38,032 bases of DNA from Bacteriovoracaceae bacterium (GTDB lineage: Bacteria; Bdellovibrionota; Bacteriovoracia; Bacteriovoracales; Bacteriovoracaceae), in the NCBI GenBank assembly GCA_003245675.1, contig QKCN01000092.1, positions 1 through 38,032 on the forward strand, in the 5' to 3' direction. Of the stretch, positions 9,351 to 19,211 are shown in pieces; the first letter of the stretch is position 1, and each line of letters opens with the position of its first letter. The position numbers and the translations under genes are program-made. Below the pieces are notes generated by a model. The model made no database searches. It was not told the DNA's origin and saw nothing but the letters and a program-made list of their open reading frames with translations.

Positions 9351-10916
9351 ATGGGAAAAGAATTAATTATTAATCAGACCCACACTGAGCAAAGAGTGGC
9401 ATTGATCGAGAACGGTGAAATTCTCGATCACCTCATTGAACGTGGAAGTGCTGATGAAAATTCTCCTCGCGTGGGGAATATTTATAAGGGAAAGGTTGTG
9501 CGTGTGCTTCCAGGCATGCAATCTGCCTTTGTCGACATTGGCTATGAGCGAGCCGCTTTTTTATATGTGGATGATGCTTATCTTCCAACTTTGGATGAGC
9601 AGCGTGAAATCATGGAAAAGTGCAAGCAGCATCAAGAGGAAAGTGCAGAAAAAATGGGGCAGTTGATTCCTGATGAGCTTAGTACTTTGCAAGAAGCTGT
9701 CGATATGAAGTTTCGCCCTGATGTAAAAATCGAAAGTTTTTTGAGGGAAGGCGATGAAATTCTCGTGCAAGTTGCCAAGGAACCGATTTCGACAAAAGGT
9801 CCAAGAGTCACTCGTCAAGTGACCTTAGCAGGACGCCATATTGTATTTATGCCCTTGATTGAGCATACAGGTGTTTCTCGCCGTATTGATGATGAAGAAG
9901 AGAGAGATCGTCTAAAGCAAATTCTCGATTCGATTCGCACTGAAGGCGTTGGTATTATTGCACGTACAGTGGCTGAGGGGCAAAGCTATAAAGTCTTGAA
10001 GTCTGATTACAATATGCTGGTTAAGCTTTGGAAAGAAGTTCAACAAAAGGGAGAAGACTGCAAAGCTCCTTGTGAAGTTTTTAGGGATTTGAACTTTGTG
10101 CAAAGGGCCCTGCGCGACATTACTGATGAAGAGGTAAAGAAAATTGTCGTCGACAGTAAATCCACCCAAAAGATCATTGAAAAATTTATGGATCGCTATT
10201 TGTCTGGAATTGAGGCGAAGGTCGAGTTTTACAATGGTGATGCACCTATTTTTGAACAATATGGCATTGATATTGAAATCGAAAGAGCTCTTTCCAATAA
10301 GGTTTTTCTAAAGTCTGGCGGTTCCATTAATATTGATCAAACAGAAGCTCTTGTTTCCATTGATGTGAATACCGGTAAATTTGTGGGTAAGCGCACATTA
10401 GAAGAGACGATTCTCAAAACGAATCTCGAGGCCGTAAAAGAAATTGCCTATCAGTTGCGTTTACGTAACTGTGGAGGAATTATCATTATCGACTTCATTG
10501 ATATGGAGAAGGAAGAGCACCGCGATCAAGTGTATCAGGCACTATTAGAGGCTTTGAAAAAGGATCGCTCTAAGACAAACGTTCTTCCGATTTCGGGTCT
10601 TGGACTTGTTGAAATGACCCGCAAAAGAACGCGTGATACTTTGACGCGGATTATGTGTACTACTTGTCCTTATTGTGAAGGAACGGGAAGGGTCAAGTCT
10701 GTTGAGACGGTTAGCTATGAGATCATTCGCAAGATTATGAATCTTCTTCCTAAAACTAAGCGCAGTAAAATTTCTATTTTTTCTCATCCTGAGGTAAGTG
10801 CGAAATTATCGACTGATGATATTGGCTTTTTAGAGACTCTCGAATTGACGTTTTCTAAGACGATTAGTATCCGCGCCGACAACAATTACCATATTGAGCA
10901 ATACGAAATTTTTTAA
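9351..10916 (+). CDS. rng: Ribonuclease E/G family endoribonuclease
   Basis: 521 residues, the length of RNase G and lacking the long C-terminal scaffold of RNase E. An S1-type RNA-binding region occupies about residues 35-130 (RVGNIYKGKVVRVLPGMQSAFVDIG) with a ~50-residue charged insertion inside it. The catalytic region includes SIDVNTGKFVG (Mg-binding Asp), LRLRNCGGIIIIDFIDM (second Asp) and, near residue 440, the zinc-link CPYCEGTG after RTRDTLTRIMC. It processes 5' monophosphorylated RNA, including rRNA precursors and mRNA. Last gene of the plus-strand operon and followed immediately by a strong terminator. Confidence 0.95.
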   Translation: MGKELIINQTHTEQRVALIENGEILDHLIERGSADENSPRVGNIYKGKVVRVLPGMQSAFVDIGYERAAFLYVDDAYLPTLDEQREIMEKCKQHQEESAEKMGQLIPDELSTLQEAVDMKFRPDVKIESFLREGDEILVQVAKEPISTKGPRVTRQVTLAGRHIVFMPLIEHTGVSRRIDDEEERDRLKQILDSIRTEGVGIIARTVAEGQSYKVLKSDYNMLVKLWKEVQQKGEDCKAPCEVFRDLNFVQRALRDITDEEVKKIVVDSKSTQKIIEKFMDRYLSGIEAKVEFYNGDAPIFEQYGIDIEIERALSNKVFLKSGGSINIDQTEALVSIDVNTGKFVGKRTLEETILKTNLEAVKEIAYQLRLRNCGGIIIIDFIDMEKEEHRDQVYQALLEALKKDRSKTNVLPISGLGLVEMTRKRTRDTLTRIMCTTCPYCEGTGRVKSVETVSYEIIRKIMNLLPKTKRSKISIFSHPEVSAKLSTDDIGFLETLELTFSKTISIRADNNYHIEQYEIF

Positions 10917-10949
10917 AAAAGGGAGGCTTTAAAACCTCCCTTTTTTTTT
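10915..10949. terminator. Bidirectional intrinsic terminator
   Basis: Perfect 12-bp stem (AAAAAAGGGAGG / CCTCCCTTTTTT) with loop CTTTAAAA, T-run on the plus strand and matching A-run on the other side. It sits between convergent rng and the minus-strand gene ending at 10955 and can serve both. Confidence 0.9.
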
Positions 10950-10954
10950 ATGAT

Positions 10955-11638
10955 CTACTCAAACAGAGGTAAAAATTCTCCATTGTGAGTGACTTGGTGA
11001 TTGAATTCGATGAATTTAATGTAATGTCCTAAATCTTTTTCTAAAATCTTTTTCACAATATGTTCTTTGAAGACATAGTTGGGATTTAGCTTAATTTTTA
11101 AAGCGCGAGATGTTTTTTCATAATAGTCAATAAAGGGGCTTTCGTTATTTTGGTAGAGTTCCTCTAGTTGAGCTTCAATGAATTCTAAATCTTTGGCGTA
11201 AATATACAGTTCACCAGGAATGACTCTGTCGCAGGGATAGCTATTTTGGTGATTGGAGAAGATATCTTTGAGTTCAAGTTGTCCATTTTTCAGCTTGGCC
11301 GTTCCGCAAAAGGACTCTTCTTGAAAATTAGGAACAGAAAAAACAAATTCAAAGCCACTTGTCGTGCAGAAAAGTCCCATTTGAATTTGTGAAGTATCAA
11401 AATCGTTCTTTCCTAGTTTTTCTAGCCTTTCTTGCAGTGATTGGTAGAAATGAGTCGAAGTTTCTGACCAGGAGAAATCCTCTACTTCCTTAGTATTGAG
11501 ACTCACAACGCGCCAATAGTCAGAGAACTCTTGCTTGATCCAGCAAGAACTATTGTTCAGTTCAATGATTTCTCCTGCCAAAATGGGGGCAGAAAAAAGA
11601 AAGACAAGCATAAGGTAGATTATTTTCGTCAACTTCAT
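10955..11638 (-). CDS. Secreted protein of unknown function
   Basis: 227 residues with a clear signal peptide (MKLTKIIYLMLVFLFSAPILA). The mature part has several cysteines (SSCWIKQ, LFCTTSGF, SFCGTAK, YPCDRV) that could form disulfides in the periplasm, then a helical acidic/lysine-rich C-terminal half. An ORF starting at 11683 exists, but the inner ATG at 11638 is preceded by AAAGAG and begins the signal peptide, so it is chosen. Monocistronic, ending at the bidirectional terminator. No family recognised. Confidence 0.75.
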   Translation of the reverse strand: MKLTKIIYLMLVFLFSAPILAGEIIELNNSSCWIKQEFSDYWRVVSLNTKEVEDFSWSETSTHFYQSLQERLEKLGKNDFDTSQIQMGLFCTTSGFEFVFSVPNFQEESFCGTAKLKNGQLELKDIFSNHQNSYPCDRVIPGELYIYAKDLEFIEAQLEELYQNNESPFIDYYEKTSRALKIKLNPNYVFKEHIVKKILEKDLGHYIKFIEFNHQVTHNGEFLPLFE

Positions 11639-11725
11639 AAACTCTTTATCGGAGTTCTTTAGTCGGACTTTAGCTTGAATCAAGAGAAAATATAGAATCT
11701 AATAATTACAGATGTTTATATCATA

Positions 11726-11750
11726 AAAAGGACGACCATTTAGGTCGTCC
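11726..11750 (-). terminator. Intrinsic terminator of the Cys-rich protein gene
   Basis: Perfect 8-bp stem GGACGACC/GGTCGTCC with a 5-base loop; on the minus strand it is followed by TTTTT. It lies 39 bases beyond the stop of the minus-strand gene at 11789. Confidence 0.8.
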
Positions 11751-11788
11751 CGTGTGAGATTATGCTTTCTGTTCAATAAGTTTGTCTT

Positions 11789-12157
11789 TTATTGGCAGGC
11801 CCAAGACTGGCCGGCATAGTGGCAGTCATTTACCATTTTTGATTTTCCTGAGCAGCAGGTATTGCAGCGATCAAAAGCTTTTCCGCCGGCATCGCCAGGA
11901 ATAAATTTACAGGCATAGCCTGATTCAATACAGTTTCTTTCTACTTTTTGAGTACAGGTGTAGTTATAGCCAAACCAATGATCACCGCTTTCTTCAGCTT
12001 CTTTAGAGCAGCAAGTTTTGCAAACATTATAGCTTTCACTACCTGCACCCGAGTCACCTTGAAAAAAACCACATTTTTCACCGGCCGGAATACAAGAGAG
12101 ATTAGCAAAAGCATTGAGACTTAATAAAATTCCAAGTAAAAGCATGAGTTTTTTCAT
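11789..12157 (-). CDS. Small Cys-rich secreted protein with a tandem-duplicated module
   Basis: 122 residues, signal peptide ending NAFA, then 13 cysteines in ~100 residues. Two copies of a ~54-residue module are evident: copy 1 has Cys22, 29, 46, 49, 50, 68 and copy 2 has Cys76, 83, 98, 101, 102, 121 (plus an extra Cys112). Each has the pattern C-x6-C-x(14-16)-C-x2-C-C, and GFFQGDSG aligns with KFIPGDAGG. Such patterns imply disulfide-stabilised extracytoplasmic domains. GGAGG lies 4 bases before the chosen ATG; the longer ORF start at 12193 has no ribosome site. Could be an envelope or released small protein; I do not recognise a named family. Confidence 0.8.
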   Translation of the reverse strand: MKKLMLLLGILLSLNAFANLSCIPAGEKCGFFQGDSGAGSESYNVCKTCCSKEAEESGDHWFGYNYTCTQKVERNCIESGYACKFIPGDAGGKAFDRCNTCCSGKSKMVNDCHYAGQSWACQ

Positions 12158-12259
12158 TTGTCCTCCAAAGTAGATTAGAAATTTTGCGTGCAAACTAACT
12201 CATTTTCTTTTTTAGTGATACCCTTTTTGTGAGCAGTGCATTATTTTCAGGGTTTGCGC

Positions 12260-12287
12260 TTTACAAATGCTTTAAATATGGTATTTT
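12260..12287 (+). promoter_or_regulatory. Sigma-70-like promoter for the S6-S18 operon
   Basis: -35 TTTACA (12260-12265), 16-base spacer, -10 TATTTT (12282-12287). A start near 12295 would give a leader of about 78 bases. Confidence 0.5.
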
Positions 12288-12318
12288 CCTCCCCAGATTC
12301 ATTTTAAATAGAGTTCTC

Positions 12319-12345
12319 GCTTCATTCGTGAATTGGAATTGAAGC
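12319..12345 (+). promoter_or_regulatory. Leader hairpin upstream of rpsF-rpsR fusion
   Basis: GCTTCA/TGAAGC stem extended by TTC/GAA across a bulged T, 8-base loop GTGAATTG, ending about 16 bases before AGGAGG. Possible autoregulatory element. The CCG-containing loop known from S6:S18-binding leaders of other bacteria was not found. Confidence 0.35.
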
Positions 12346-12372
12346 TTAATGTATAACCCAGGAGGAAAATCT

Positions 12373-12975
12373 ATGATCTACGAAGCAGTAGTCATGTTGC
12401 GTCCCGAACTAGCTGAGGATGCGCAAAAAGAAATCAAAGAAATGGTTCAAGAGACAATCTCATCTTTCGAAGGTGAAAGCCTTATTAATGATGATTGGGG
12501 TGTTAAATCTCTTGCCCAAGCAACAGAAACAGGTCTTTCTAAAGGTCATTTCTTTTACGTTATGTATCGTGCCAATGCTAATTGCAATGCCGAACTTGCA
12601 CGTAAAGTTAAGATTGATGAAAGAATTGACCGTCACTTGATCGTCAGCCTTGGTGAAGATCGTCACCAAGATAAATTGACTAAAGTTTACAAGCGCCCAG
12701 GTGCTTCTGCTGAAGGTGACAAAGGACGTTTTGATCTCGATAAAGAGAGAAAACTTCACGCCAAGAGAAGATCTTGCTGGTTCTCTGCTAATAAAACTAG
12801 CCCAGATTGGAAAGATCCTTCAACTTATGCATGGCTTGTAAATGAATTTGGGAAAATTTCACCAGCAAGAGTAACTGGTCTAACTCCTAAGTTTCAAAGA
12901 AAAGCAACAGAAGCAATCAAAAGAGGTCGTTGTATGGGATTCATCAGCTACCTTTCTAATAGGATTGCTCGCTAG
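12373..12975 (+). CDS. rpsF-rpsR: Ribosomal proteins S6 and S18 fused in one ORF
   Basis: 200-residue protein. Residues 1-~100 are S6: MIYEAVVMLRPEL, DDWGVKSLAQ, then KGHFFYVMYRA and the IDERIDRHLIVS strand. Residues ~125-200 are S18: HAKRRSCWFSANK, GKISPARVTGLTPKFQRKATEAIKRGR and an FISYL ending. They are joined by a ~20-residue charged linker without a stop, in-frame ATG or internal ribosome site, so S18 cannot obviously be made separately. S6 and S18 are direct neighbours on the 30S platform and bind as a pair, so a covalent pair is structurally plausible. AGGAGG decides the start at 12373 rather than 12349. Followed by DUF2232 and rplI, the conserved order for separate rpsF and rpsR genes. 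Confidence 0.95.
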   Translation: MIYEAVVMLRPELAEDAQKEIKEMVQETISSFEGESLINDDWGVKSLAQATETGLSKGHFFYVMYRANANCNAELARKVKIDERIDRHLIVSLGEDRHQDKLTKVYKRPGASAEGDKGRFDLDKERKLHAKRRSCWFSANKTSPDWKDPSTYAWLVNEFGKISPARVTGLTPKFQRKATEAIKRGRCMGFISYLSNRIAR

Positions 12976-12996
12976 TTGAGCGTGGATTAATAAGTT

Positions 12997-14028
12997 ATGG
13001 AATCTGTGGTTAAACCTCGCACATTAGAAGAAAGATTTGGACAAGCAAAAATGTTTTTGTTTGCCTTTCTTGCTCTTTTGCTTTCGATGAGTTTTTTCAT
13101 GGCCGTTTTTTCTCCTCTTGCGATGGGACTGGTTTTTATCATTTATGGTAAAAAGAAAGGTTTACTCATGGCATTGGCGACTTTAATTGTCATGACCATT
13201 GTTTCTTTAACTTGGCTACAGTCATCAGGATTTATTTTTGTGCATATTGGTGCCTTGGTGTTTGCCTACTTTATTGGCGATACCATTTTGAGCAATCTTC
13301 ACCCAATCAAAGGGATTATGAAGGCAGGAGCTTACATCCTTCTTGCTCTAACTGTTGTCATACTTTTTTCTGTTGGAATGAGCGAAAAAAGTATTCAAGG
13401 TCAGATGATCGGGCAGGTAGAGGAATTGGCAAAACCAATTCTCAAAGAGAAGGAAAAGTTTTTAGCGCAAGGTGGGAATGAAGCCCGTCAGTTTGTGGAG
13501 CTTTTGGAAAAGCCTGAAGTTCTTGCAGAGAAGCTTTTGCGTGTTATGCCAGCATATCTTTTTGTGGGCGTCTTTTTTGTATTATGGCTCAATATGTTTC
13601 TTTTGTTGCGGGGAATTCGAGGGGTGTTGATCTTTACCGATTATCCTTATCGAGACCGTGATTTGATGGGATTTAAACTGCCAGATCTTTTAGTCTGGGG
13701 GGTTATTGCGGGATTGGCCCTTTTCTTGGGTGCCGATTATTTTGGTTTGGGAAAAAATGCAGAAACTTTAGGAATGACCGTTCTTTATTGTTTAGGCATT
13801 TTCTACTTTTTCCAAGGTGTGGGCGTTTTGATGTTCACTATGAATATCTTTCGTTTCCCAGCAATGATGAAGTCCTTTATCTTGATGTTGATGATTGTAA
13901 CAATTCCGTGGTTACTTGCTGGTCTCGGTGTCTTTGACACTTGGGCCGATTTTAGAACTCTCATTCTCAAGAAAAAAATGGGAAGAGATAAAGAGAATAA
14001 AAATAATTCTGATAGTGATAAAGATTAA
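12997..14028 (+). CDS. DUF2232-type polytopic membrane protein
   Basis: 343-residue integral membrane protein with about eight hydrophobic segments: a cluster in residues 20-130, one near 185, and four more between 225 and 310. The tail is charged and Asn/Asp/Lys-rich. Position between S6/S18 and L9 is the classic location of DUF2232 (YybS-like) proteins in delta-proteobacteria and Firmicutes, and the segment FRFPAMMKSFILMLM near the last helices fits. Function unknown in the family; transporter-like folding has been suggested. 21 bases after the S6-S18 gene, so the same transcript. Confidence 0.75.
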   Translation: MESVVKPRTLEERFGQAKMFLFAFLALLLSMSFFMAVFSPLAMGLVFIIYGKKKGLLMALATLIVMTIVSLTWLQSSGFIFVHIGALVFAYFIGDTILSNLHPIKGIMKAGAYILLALTVVILFSVGMSEKSIQGQMIGQVEELAKPILKEKEKFLAQGGNEARQFVELLEKPEVLAEKLLRVMPAYLFVGVFFVLWLNMFLLLRGIRGVLIFTDYPYRDRDLMGFKLPDLLVWGVIAGLALFLGADYFGLGKNAETLGMTVLYCLGIFYFFQGVGVLMFTMNIFRFPAMMKSFILMLMIVTIPWLLAGLGVFDTWADFRTLILKKKMGRDKENKNNSDSDKD

Positions 14029-14044
14029 TTTGTAAGGAGTACTT

Positions 14045-14608
14045 ATGAAAGTGATATTGACAGAAAAAGTAAAAACCTTAGGAAATGTTGGCGAGATCGT
14101 TAACGTTTCTGAAGGATATGCAAGAAACTTCTTGATCCCTCAACAATACGCGATTTTAGCTGATGCGCGTAATACTAAAGAAGTTGAATTGGCCCAAAAA
14201 CGTTTGGCCAAGAAAGTTGAAGAAGAAAAGCAAGCAGCTTTGAACACTAAGAAGACAATTGAAGGAATCACAATCAACCTTATTAAGAGAGTTGGAAGTG
14301 ATGGTAAGCTTTTCGGTTCTGTAACAAATACTGAGCTTGCTAAAGTTTTAGAAAAAGAACATGGGCTTGAAATTGAGCGTCGTACAATTGTTATCGATAC
14401 TCCAATCAAAGCTTGTGGTAACTTCGAAACAAAAGTGAAGCTTTTTGTTGGTGTTGATGCTGTTTTGAAAGTTGCTGTGCAAATGGATGAGAAGCAAAAA
14501 GAAGAAATGAAACTTCTTCAAGCTCAAGCTTCTAAGAAAAAAGCTCAAGCGAAAGCTGAAGCAGAAGAGAAAAAAGAAGAAGAGACAACTGAAGAAGCTC
14601 AAGCTTAA
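14045..14608 (+). CDS. rplI: Ribosomal protein L9 with charged C-terminal extension
   Basis: 187 residues. N-domain MKVILTEKVKTLGNVGEIVNVSEGYARNFLIP is the diagnostic L9 rRNA-binding sequence, then the long connecting helix and the C-domain (GKLFGSVT, IDTPIKACGNFE). The last ~35 residues are an Ala/Lys/Glu-rich helix not found in the usual ~149-residue L9. AAGGAG precedes the ATG. L9 projects from the L1 side of the 50S subunit and helps restrain frameshifting. Followed by a terminator. Confidence 0.96.
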   Translation: MKVILTEKVKTLGNVGEIVNVSEGYARNFLIPQQYAILADARNTKEVELAQKRLAKKVEEEKQAALNTKKTIEGITINLIKRVGSDGKLFGSVTNTELAKVLEKEHGLEIERRTIVIDTPIKACGNFETKVKLFVGVDAVLKVAVQMDEKQKEEMKLLQAQASKKKAQAKAEAEEKKEEETTEEAQA

Positions 14609-14622
14609 TTTGTTTTTTTTAT

Positions 14623-14653
14623 AGGGCCCACGTCATGTGGGTCCTTTTTTTTT
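14623..14653 (+). terminator. Intrinsic terminator after rplI
   Basis: GGGCCCAC/GTGGGTCC stem (one G-T pair), GTCAT loop, run of nine T. It ends only about 9 bases before the next start codon, so the downstream gene depends on read-through or another promoter. Confidence 0.8.
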
Positions 14654-14661
14654 GGGTAGGC

Positions 14662-15513
14662 ATGCATATAGTAAGGCTGATCTTTCCTATTTTGATTATT
14701 CTTCTCGATCAAATTTCAAAATTTTGGATTGTGTCTCATACTGTCTCTTTAGATTCTTTCTGGGGGGGAATTTCTTTTCGGCCAAACTTTGGCTTTGCAT
14801 CTTCCTTCTTTACGGAAGCAGATGTCCTTTTAAAGTTATGTATCGTGTTATCTTTTTTCGCTCTTATGTTGGCCATTGTTTACCTCATCAATACTTTCTT
14901 TTTGACTAATAAACTCTTTTCGGGTCTTCGCCTTTCCCTGTGGTGTGTGATCGCAAGTATTGCTGGAAACCTAATTGACAAGATTCAGCTGGGATATGCG
15001 GTGGATTTTTTATATTTGAATGTTCCCTTTTTAAGAAATGCTATCTTTAACATTGCAGATATCTTTCTTGTTGCTTCTGTTTTGGTTTGTGTTTTTTGGG
15101 TGGCGAAGTATCACAAGCTTCTCTGGTATGATAACGATCGCAGAAGAGTCAAGCTTATTGATCGAGTATTTCAGATAAAATTTACCCTTTATATTGTCAG
15201 TTTTACGGTGCTTCTTGGCTTTCTTTTCGGCAGTTTGGGGCTGTCATTTCTTTTGAACTCCAACTCTGATGCGATTTGGACTTATATCCTGATGTTTTCT
15301 CTATATATGATTATGATTAGCTTTCTTTCATTACTTTTGGGGCTTATTCTTTCTTTTAGGATCGTCGGTCCACTTAAGGCCTTAAGTAATTTCATTGATA
15401 CTTTAGAGGGGGGAGAAAAAGAAATCTCCTTCACTTTGCGTAAAGGAGATTTGTTACAAGGGTCTCTTAAAAAGATTGCTCAGAAAGTTAAAGTTTTGAT
15501 TTTAGGGCGCTAA
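14662..15513 (+). CDS. Signal peptidase II (LspA)-like protein fused to a membrane/HAMP module
   Basis: 283 residues from the ATG at 14662; the ORF's earlier ATG at 14635 lies inside the rplI terminator. Residues 1-~148 resemble lipoprotein signal peptidase: LLDQISKFW near 15, PNFGFASSF near 42, AGNLIDKIQLGYAVDF with catalytic Asp115, and FNIAD with catalytic Asp133. Both aspartates are kept, so it may cleave prolipoproteins. Residues ~151-283 are extra: a basic DNDRRRVKLIDRVFQ segment, two membrane helices (~172-192, ~205-228), then a HAMP-like sequence with the VGPLKAL proline and RKGDLLQGSL. HAMP modules normally relay signals in receptors, so a link between lipoprotein processing and sensing is possible. 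Start site is the least certain point, as the ribosome site is poor. Confidence 0.78.
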   Translation: MHIVRLIFPILIILLDQISKFWIVSHTVSLDSFWGGISFRPNFGFASSFFTEADVLLKLCIVLSFFALMLAIVYLINTFFLTNKLFSGLRLSLWCVIASIAGNLIDKIQLGYAVDFLYLNVPFLRNAIFNIADIFLVASVLVCVFWVAKYHKLLWYDNDRRRVKLIDRVFQIKFTLYIVSFTVLLGFLFGSLGLSFLLNSNSDAIWTYILMFSLYMIMISFLSLLLGLILSFRIVGPLKALSNFIDTLEGGEKEISFTLRKGDLLQGSLKKIAQKVKVLILGR

Positions 15514-17870: not shown

Positions 17871-19211
17871 ATGTCTAAGGAAATGCCTCGAGATCTCATC
17901 TCAGAAAGGGCCCTTTTAGGTTGTCTTGTTCTAGATGGAAGTGCCTTTGATGAAATTATGGACTTGTCTCTTGTGCAAGAGGATTTTTTTCATCCCCAGT
18001 ATGGAATTATTTTTAATGCGATTCGCGAGTTGCACTTTGCTTCGAGTCCAATTGATTTTGTGACCTTAAGTGCCAAACTGAATGATCAAGGCAAAATTGA
18101 TCAAATCGGTGGGCAAGAAGCTTTACTTGCTTTGACAGAAGAGCAGGCATCTTCCGTTAATATTTATCACTATGGGAAGTCTATTAAAGATAAAGCGATC
18201 TTGCGCGATATCGTCAAAACGGCCGCTCAGGTGATGGATGAGGGAATGCAATTTAAAGGGGAGATGGAAGAATTTATCAACAAAGTTGAATCTAAATTTT
18301 TTCGCTTAACCAGTGAAACGAAACGCGGTGGTTTACGCAATATCAAAGAATTTTTGGCCGTCAATTTACGGCAGTTAGAAGATGAGCGACGTAAAAAAGG
18401 CGAGGCGCAGGGGCTTCCTACTGGCTTTCATGATTTAGACAAAAAATTGATGGGGCTTCAACCCGGTCAACTCGTGGTTTTGGCGGCCCGTCCGGCCATG
18501 GGAAAAACCTCTCTTGCATTAAATTTGGCGGTGAATGCCGCTTCCGCTACAGGCTTGCCGGTTGCTATTTATTCATTGGAGATGTTGGCCCCAGAACTTT
18601 CGATGAGAGTTCTTTCATCGGAAGCAGGGGTTGATGCAGGACGATTGCGTTCCAAAAGTTTTTTAGATACGGATCTTCGCAACATTGCTAAAGCGGTGCA
18701 GACTCTTTCTGACCTTCCTTTAGTGATCAATGATGCCGCAGATATTACTTTGGTTGATATTAGAAGTCAGTGTCGCAAAATTAAAACAGAGCAGGGTCTA
18801 GGGTTAGTAATTATCGACTACCTTCAATTGATGCAGCCTCATACTGCGACGATATCGCGCGAACAACAGATTTCAGAAATTTCGCGGGGTCTGAAAAATT
18901 TAGCAAAAGAATTAGAGTGTCCGGTCATTGCCCTTTCACAGCTTAACCGTGGAGTTGAATCTAGGGTTGATAAGCGTCCAATGGCCAGTGACTTGAGAGA
19001 GTCTGGTGCGATTGAACAAGATGCCGACATTATTCTTATGGTTTACCGAGATGAGGTTTACTACAAAGACAGTAAGGACAAAGGGGTGGCGGAAGTTATC
19101 GTGGTTAAAAACCGTGCGGGAGAGACTGGGACATCGCGCTTGGCGTGGATTGGTTCTCAAACGAAGTTTGCCAACCTTGAGATGAGTCGCTCATACAACG
19201 CAGAACAATAA
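17871..19211 (+). CDS. dnaB: Replicative DNA helicase DnaB
   Basis: 446-residue hexameric helicase that unwinds DNA ahead of the replisome. N-terminal domain SERALLGCLVLDGSAFDEI (residues ~10-28) interacts with primase. The RecA-like domain begins at GLPTGFHDLDKKLMGLQPGQLVVLAARPAMGKTS with Walker A near residue 206. Further motifs are SLEMLAPELSMR, Walker B LVIIDYLQLM, EISRGLKNLAKELECPVIALSQLNR, and DLRESGAIEQDADIILMVYR with the arginine-finger loop. GGAG ribosome site. It follows rplI by 3.3 kb instead of directly, the intervening genes being an insertion in a common gene order. Confidence 0.97.
   Translation: MSKEMPRDLISERALLGCLVLDGSAFDEIMDLSLVQEDFFHPQYGIIFNAIRELHFASSPIDFVTLSAKLNDQGKIDQIGGQEALLALTEEQASSVNIYHYGKSIKDKAILRDIVKTAAQVMDEGMQFKGEMEEFINKVESKFFRLTSETKRGGLRNIKEFLAVNLRQLEDERRKKGEAQGLPTGFHDLDKKLMGLQPGQLVVLAARPAMGKTSLALNLAVNAASATGLPVAIYSLEMLAPELSMRVLSSEAGVDAGRLRSKSFLDTDLRNIAKAVQTLSDLPLVINDAADITLVDIRSQCRKIKTEQGLGLVIIDYLQLMQPHTATISREQQISEISRGLKNLAKELECPVIALSQLNRGVESRVDKRPMASDLRESGAIEQDADIILMVYRDEVYYKDSKDKGVAEVIVVKNRAGETGTSRLAWIGSQTKFANLEMSRSYNAEQ

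Follow-up and report, generated by a model that had tools for sequence, protein, structure and literature searches.

In nearly all Bacteriovoracaceae, a single open frame encodes both ribosomal protein S6 and ribosomal protein S18, and this fusion is confirmed as the normal, conserved state of the family. The gene that we analyzed lies in a stretch of 38,032 nucleotides (the window) from a fragmented source genome assembled in 124 contigs. Sequence and comparative analysis suggest, with a probability that we put at roughly 0.8, that the fused bS6-bS18 protein stays one covalent unit on the 30S platform, which fixes the ratio of S6 to S18 at 1:1, and acts as repressor of the mRNA that encodes it. 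The gene, its parts and two downstream neighbors are listed here.

12373-12975, plus strand: S6-S18 fusion gene, a single open frame with Pfam and NCBIfam matches for both domains; 110 genomes of the family are alike
12379-12645, plus strand: S6 domain, residues 3-91 (PF01250, E 1.5e-17; AlphaFold2; Foldseek)
12646-12792, plus strand: linker, made up of the S6 C-terminal tail (ending KVYKRP), a charged stretch and the basic S18 N-terminus (alignment A1)
12775-12786, plus strand: CWFS, residues 135-138, with serine for the second zinc cysteine; CxxC is absent from all fused S18
12793-12945, plus strand: S18 domain, residues 141-191 (PF01084, E 1.1e-14)
12997-14028, plus strand: gene of a DUF2232 membrane protein (PF09991), the downstream neighbor; order conserved across the family
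14045-14608, plus strand: ribosomal protein L9 gene (TIGR00158, E 5e-38); order conserved across the family

The fusion frame runs from an ATG at 12373, preceded by AGGAGG at 12360-12365, to a TAG at 12973-12975, and its 200 codons specify a protein of 200 amino acids (22.9 kDa, pI 9.4). A second in-frame ATG is present upstream, at 12349, but it is an unlikely start because the MIYE start with its AGGAGG is conserved, MIYE being found in 24 of 24 homologues in alignment A1. Both halves are full domains that passed the cut-offs of the two databases. The bS6 half scored 64 bits against PF01250 (cut-off 27) and 52.6 against TIGR00166 (cut-off 42.9), and the bS18 half scored 54.7 bits against PF01084 (cut-off 21) and 55.1 against TIGR00165 (cut-off 38.75). 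The initial annotation, which had noticed S6 and S18 motifs in one 200-codon frame, was therefore right about the frame, the domains and the coordinates.

In the AlphaFold2 model, the pLDDT of the S6 domain was mostly about 80-93, and the top Foldseek matches of the model were S6 chains of solved 70S ribosomes (TMt 0.81-0.95), showing that the S6 fold is present. The S18 half was modeled poorly, with a pLDDT of about 50-60. Its basic residues K183, R184 and R186 are the counterparts of E. coli K60, R61 and R63, which contact 16S rRNA and the leader (PMC4647458). Equivalents of K183 and R186 were found in all readable fused sequences, and that of R184 in most. Residues 111-138 had a pLDDT below 50 and are predicted to form a disordered linker. 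Measured from YKxP to CxF in 71 homologues, the linker has 23-39 residues (median 31), and between the Pfam boundaries in the window it has 49; its sequence and length vary among the fusions (A1; family homologues). A charged linker of about 20 residues had been described earlier; the charged stretch is there, but the linker is longer.

The survey of related genomes that had been proposed with the first description was performed by comparing the fusion profile A1 with 129 Bacteriovoracaceae genomes, 119 of which gave a match. A single-frame fusion without a stop was found in 110 of these 119, from about 40 genera. Three further matches were truncated at contig ends (G014, G110 and G120), and five genomes have separate S6 and S18 genes (G020, G059, G060, G061 and G065). 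S18 was detected in 118 of the 129 genomes, including all 73 of good quality. In the source genome (87.9% complete), a profile search found no other S6 or S18, and we rejected the idea of a separate copy of either protein elsewhere in it. The remaining case, G072, has a TAA in frame between S6 and S18 (L090:3795-3815, minus strand), at a position where its relatives encode Glu or something similar. No start codon lies between this TAA and the S18 core, and both the leader and the S18 are of the fused type; the sequence of G072 suggests a fused gene that carries a nonsense change (polymorphism) or an assembly error, or that is read through.

Among the matches listed for 240 genomes of other families (phylum set, 369), no one-frame fusion was found outside Bacteriovoracaceae, and most of these Bdellovibrionota genomes gave two separate matches, one for S6 and one for S18; a fusion there that scored too weakly to be listed is improbable. 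In three of them (G271, G288 and G300), S6 and S18 lie in the same frame with a single stop between, so the loss of one stop would suffice to make a fusion. A search for viral relatives found none. One family genome, G075, has beside its fusion a second, separate S6-like frame (C102:376-744, minus strand; E 1.5e-15), which could be contamination or a paralogue.

C- (zinc-free) forms of S18 are found in many bacteria, and in mycobacteria the C- form is an alternative copy. The fused S18 resembles these forms in having no CxxC...CxxH; unlike in mycobacteria, the C- S18 is here the sole copy, and its occurrence in the family matches that of the fusion. The CX2CXnCX2H form (C+), with which bacterial S18 binds zinc (PMC11791143), is absent from the window S18, which has CWFS and LTPKFQ instead. 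Every readable fused S18 lacks the second cysteine and has lost the zinc site, that of G072 likewise. All five unfused S18 of the family (5/5) keep the site as CWFC...C.xH, and four of six outgroup S18 have CxxC...CAxHQ. The fused lineages lost the zinc site, perhaps because a tethered S18 could do without it. Should there have been just one fusion event, however, the perfect match of fusion with zinc loss would amount to one coincidence and be no proof of a link.

We give even odds to a single ancient fusion event, the five unfused genomes then being either outside the fused clade or products of later fission; the alternative is at least two independent fusions, each followed by zinc loss. 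One fused clade was not rejected in the AU test with 961 columns (p 0.228), and p was 0.057 with 3437 columns that included RpoB and DnaG (TIGR01391). In addition, the unfused lineages hold the complete zinc site, as the four outgroup S18 do, and so they probably never passed through a fused, cysteine-less state. Against a single event, the best trees nest the unfused lineages among the fused ones, with three changes of fusion state, and no bootstrap tree had the fused rows as one side (G072 being counted as split). It is possible, if rather doubtful, that Bacteriovoracaceae acquired the fusion repeatedly, losing the S18 zinc site on every occasion, and that a covalent tether thereby took the place of a metal-stabilized S6-S18 module of the ribosome several times. 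If repeated fusion is true, it would have made the platform zinc-free and locked the stoichiometry of the autogenous repressor.

How would the fused protein work? The S6 domain would fold, and S18 would fold onto S6 and 16S rRNA in the manner known from other bacteria, the flexible linker being long enough, judging from its length, to span the S6-S18 pair in most arrangements. The S6-S18 heterodimer would then form within one chain, at an exact 1:1 ratio; a repressor made from one chain needs no assembly of two proteins and is always 1:1. By analogy with E. coli, an excess of the free unit would bind its own leader, with S18 residues contacting the conserved CC that adjoins helix H1. Binding would stabilize H1, hide the Shine-Dalgarno sequence and block translation, as the E. 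coli S6:S18 dimer does. In Bacteroidia, the 3' tail of 16S rRNA is held in a pocket on the platform that is built from bS6, bS18 and bS21 (PMC9976891), and a tether between S6 and S18 at this pocket could be relevant to initiation as well.

The first description had S6 and S18 made as one polypeptide, and conservation in the family, the lack of separate copies and the lack of a conserved internal start support this; a single polypeptide would probably be a covalent unit on the 30S platform. A different fate for the chain is that it is a precursor cut in the linker by a protease, leaving separate S6 and S18 in the ribosome, as with the ubiquitin and FUBI fusions of eukaryotic ribosomal proteins. 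The linker varies in both sequence and length and is predicted to lack order, so it would be accessible to a protease, and eukaryotic ribosomal-protein fusions that are cleaved do exist. No cleavage motif was evident across 72 linkers, however, and S6 and S18 sit side by side on the platform, so there is no evident need to cut. We consider such processing unlikely.

That the covalent unit represses its own mRNA is suggested by the RNA upstream of the gene, in which we recognized the following elements.

12312-12372, plus strand: S6:S18-type leader RNA (alignment A2, covariation)
12312-12318, plus strand: 5' arm of H1, AGTTCTC, with the core CUC (A2 columns 5-7 pair with 64-66 in 62-63 of 63 sequences)
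12319-12327, plus strand: 5' arm of H2 (A2 pairing)
12337-12345, plus strand: 3' arm of H2 (A2 pairing)
12358-12359, plus strand: conserved CC, the E. coli counterpart of which contacts S18 (A2; role from PMC4647458)
12360-12368, plus strand: Shine-Dalgarno sequence AGGAGG, overlapping the 3' arm of H1 at 12362-12368 (sequence, pairing)

The leader lies directly upstream of the S6 start. H1, whose two arms are 12312-12318 and 12362-12368, is stacked directly on H2 and holds part of the Shine-Dalgarno sequence, and the 3' loop ends in CC just before AGGAGG. Alignment A2 contains this leader and those of 62 other fused genomes (63 sequences). Paired cells made up 83.5% of A2 versus 65.2% in shuffles, and 215 cells had changes on both sides versus 87.5 in shuffles. 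The covariation score was 0.490 versus 0.177 (sd 0.012) in shuffles, and fell to 0.155 or less when the pairing was shifted by one column. In H2, 91.9% of the cells were paired and seven of nine pairs had changes on both sides. The H1 core is nearly invariant, as is loop cytosine C47, and C48 is invariant.

Since Rfam 15 scans of the window and its neighbors gave no leader family match for fused or outgroup leaders, we built our own model, R1, from A2 and thus only from fused genomes. Within the source genome, 12312-12370 was the sole strong match (E 1.5e-8), and the leader of G072 (L090) was matched as well (E 4e-6). R1 also matched leaders that precede a stand-alone S6 gene: L172 (E 7.7e-5), L165 (E 0.008) and L089, that of the unfused G065 (E 0.005). 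The E. coli leader itself was not matched by R1. Many outgroup leaders read CCTTGCTC...GGGGCTTTAACCGAAAGGA, and the E. coli leader reads CCTTGCCTCC...GGAGGCTGAATAATCCGTAAGGAG; both have a layout like that of the fused leader. As in the described rpsF_leader or S6:S18 motif (Matelska 2013, Fu 2014, Babina 2015), there is an H1 with the Shine-Dalgarno sequence, an H2 and a CC in the 3' loop by H1, directly before S6. It differs from rpsF_leader in that H1 is CUC/GAG rather than CCUU/AAGG, in that CC is followed by A, C, G or T rather than forming CCG, and in having no Rfam 15 match. Judged by sequence and pairing, the hairpin at 12312-12372 belongs to the S6:S18 (rpsF) leaders already described, as a variant form. 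Repression by S6:S18 in E. coli requires the CC pair, which is the mutated and functionally tested part, as well as H1 and H2 (PMC4647458). Because the fused leader shares this layout, the feedback loop is most likely retained in fused genomes.

It had been claimed at first that the autoregulatory circuit may have changed, with no CCG loop and a different hairpin in the leader. The CCG triplet is indeed absent, the window having CCA after H2, but the hairpin is not a different one. Across fused leaders the third base of the triplet is A, C, G or T, with CCG in only 7 of 68, and UC replaces CC in 3 of 68. Three unfused genomes, moreover, have another hairpin upstream of S6, which reads CCGCACACAAT...ATTGTGTCC in G059 and G060 (L086 and L087) and GCCGTGCGCACA...TGTGCGCCC in G061 (L088), and R1 found no leader match in these three; from their sequences, these hairpins are possibly another S6:S18 leader. 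Such differences would fit a loss of the feedback, or its replacement by some unrelated hairpin. The fused genomes, however, keep the H1/H2 layout, the Shine-Dalgarno pairing and the CC with strong covariation, and this element is shared by relatives whose S6 and S18 genes are separate. We therefore rejected loss of the leader on the covariation and the model search, and consider a loss of the feedback very improbable.

Another reading of the single frame is that S18 is made also, or only, from an internal start in the linker, giving two proteins. An in-frame ATG, GTG or TTG lies between S6 and CxF in 42 of 72 fusions, and in six a start is near an upstream purine-rich site. The other 30 have no such codon, and the positions of the starts differ. 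In the window, the stretch from the S6 domain to the S18 CxF has only one possible start, a TTG at codon 102 without a ribosome site, which agrees with the initial annotation's finding of no internal start with such a site. Unfused family members give S18 its own ATG, most with an AAGGA-type site; with junction starts absent or unconserved in the fusions, internal initiation is not the rule, and it would leave the missing stop codon unexplained. We thus rejected a conserved internal start, and hold internal initiation to be highly improbable. Finally, although the window comes from a fragmented 124-contig genome, a stop codon hidden by assembly or sequencing error is ruled out by the same frame in 110 independent genomes, some assembled in 1, 2 or 6 contigs, and in three public MAG records.

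Compared with the separate bS6 (rpsF) and bS18 (rpsR) of E. coli, B. subtilis and others, the fusion has the same two domains in the same order and the same S18 basic residues; it differs in being one chain, with a linker (median about 31 residues by family landmarks) and no start of its own for S18. E. coli has priB between rpsF and rpsR. In the human mitoribosome, bS18m and bS6m are bridged by a [2Fe-2S] cluster (PMC11791143), and there too S6 and S18 are tied beyond surface contact; the tie in the fusion is a peptide linker and not a metal cluster, and there is no cysteine bridge. Ribosomal proteins also occur within longer chains in the GdpP-type protein-L9 (NCBIfam NF011110), ubiquitin-eL40/eS31 and FUBI-eS30 fusions. 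These, unlike S6-S18, join a ribosomal to a non-ribosomal protein, and the eukaryotic ones are cleaved.

We found no description of an S6-S18 fusion in the open-access papers searched; as far as those papers go, two ribosomal proteins fused as the conserved state of a bacterial family are rare or undescribed. The fusion offers a naturally occurring test of whether the two proteins must ever act separately. It also bears on feedback by a two-part repressor that has become one chain and on how the S18 zinc site relates to pairing with S6, and unfused relatives within Bacteriovoracaceae serve as controls. There is a practical side too: marker pipelines, for which S6 and S18 are standard genes, may miscount the fused protein.

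The gene order rng, S6-S18, DUF2232, L9 (window 9351-14608) and dnaB (17871-19211) is largely conserved in the family, and L9 is in the same operon as rpsF and rpsR in E. coli also. Divergent from the fusion gene, 11789-12193 (minus strand) encodes a small protein that is rich in cysteine, has two repeats and probably carries a signal peptide; no Pfam match was found for it. Between L9 and dnaB, 14635-15513 (plus strand) encodes a divergent LspA (signal peptidase II), extended at its C-terminus by a membrane and HAMP-like part. A similarity search found no LspA at this position in relatives. The source genome has two more LspA matches besides this one.
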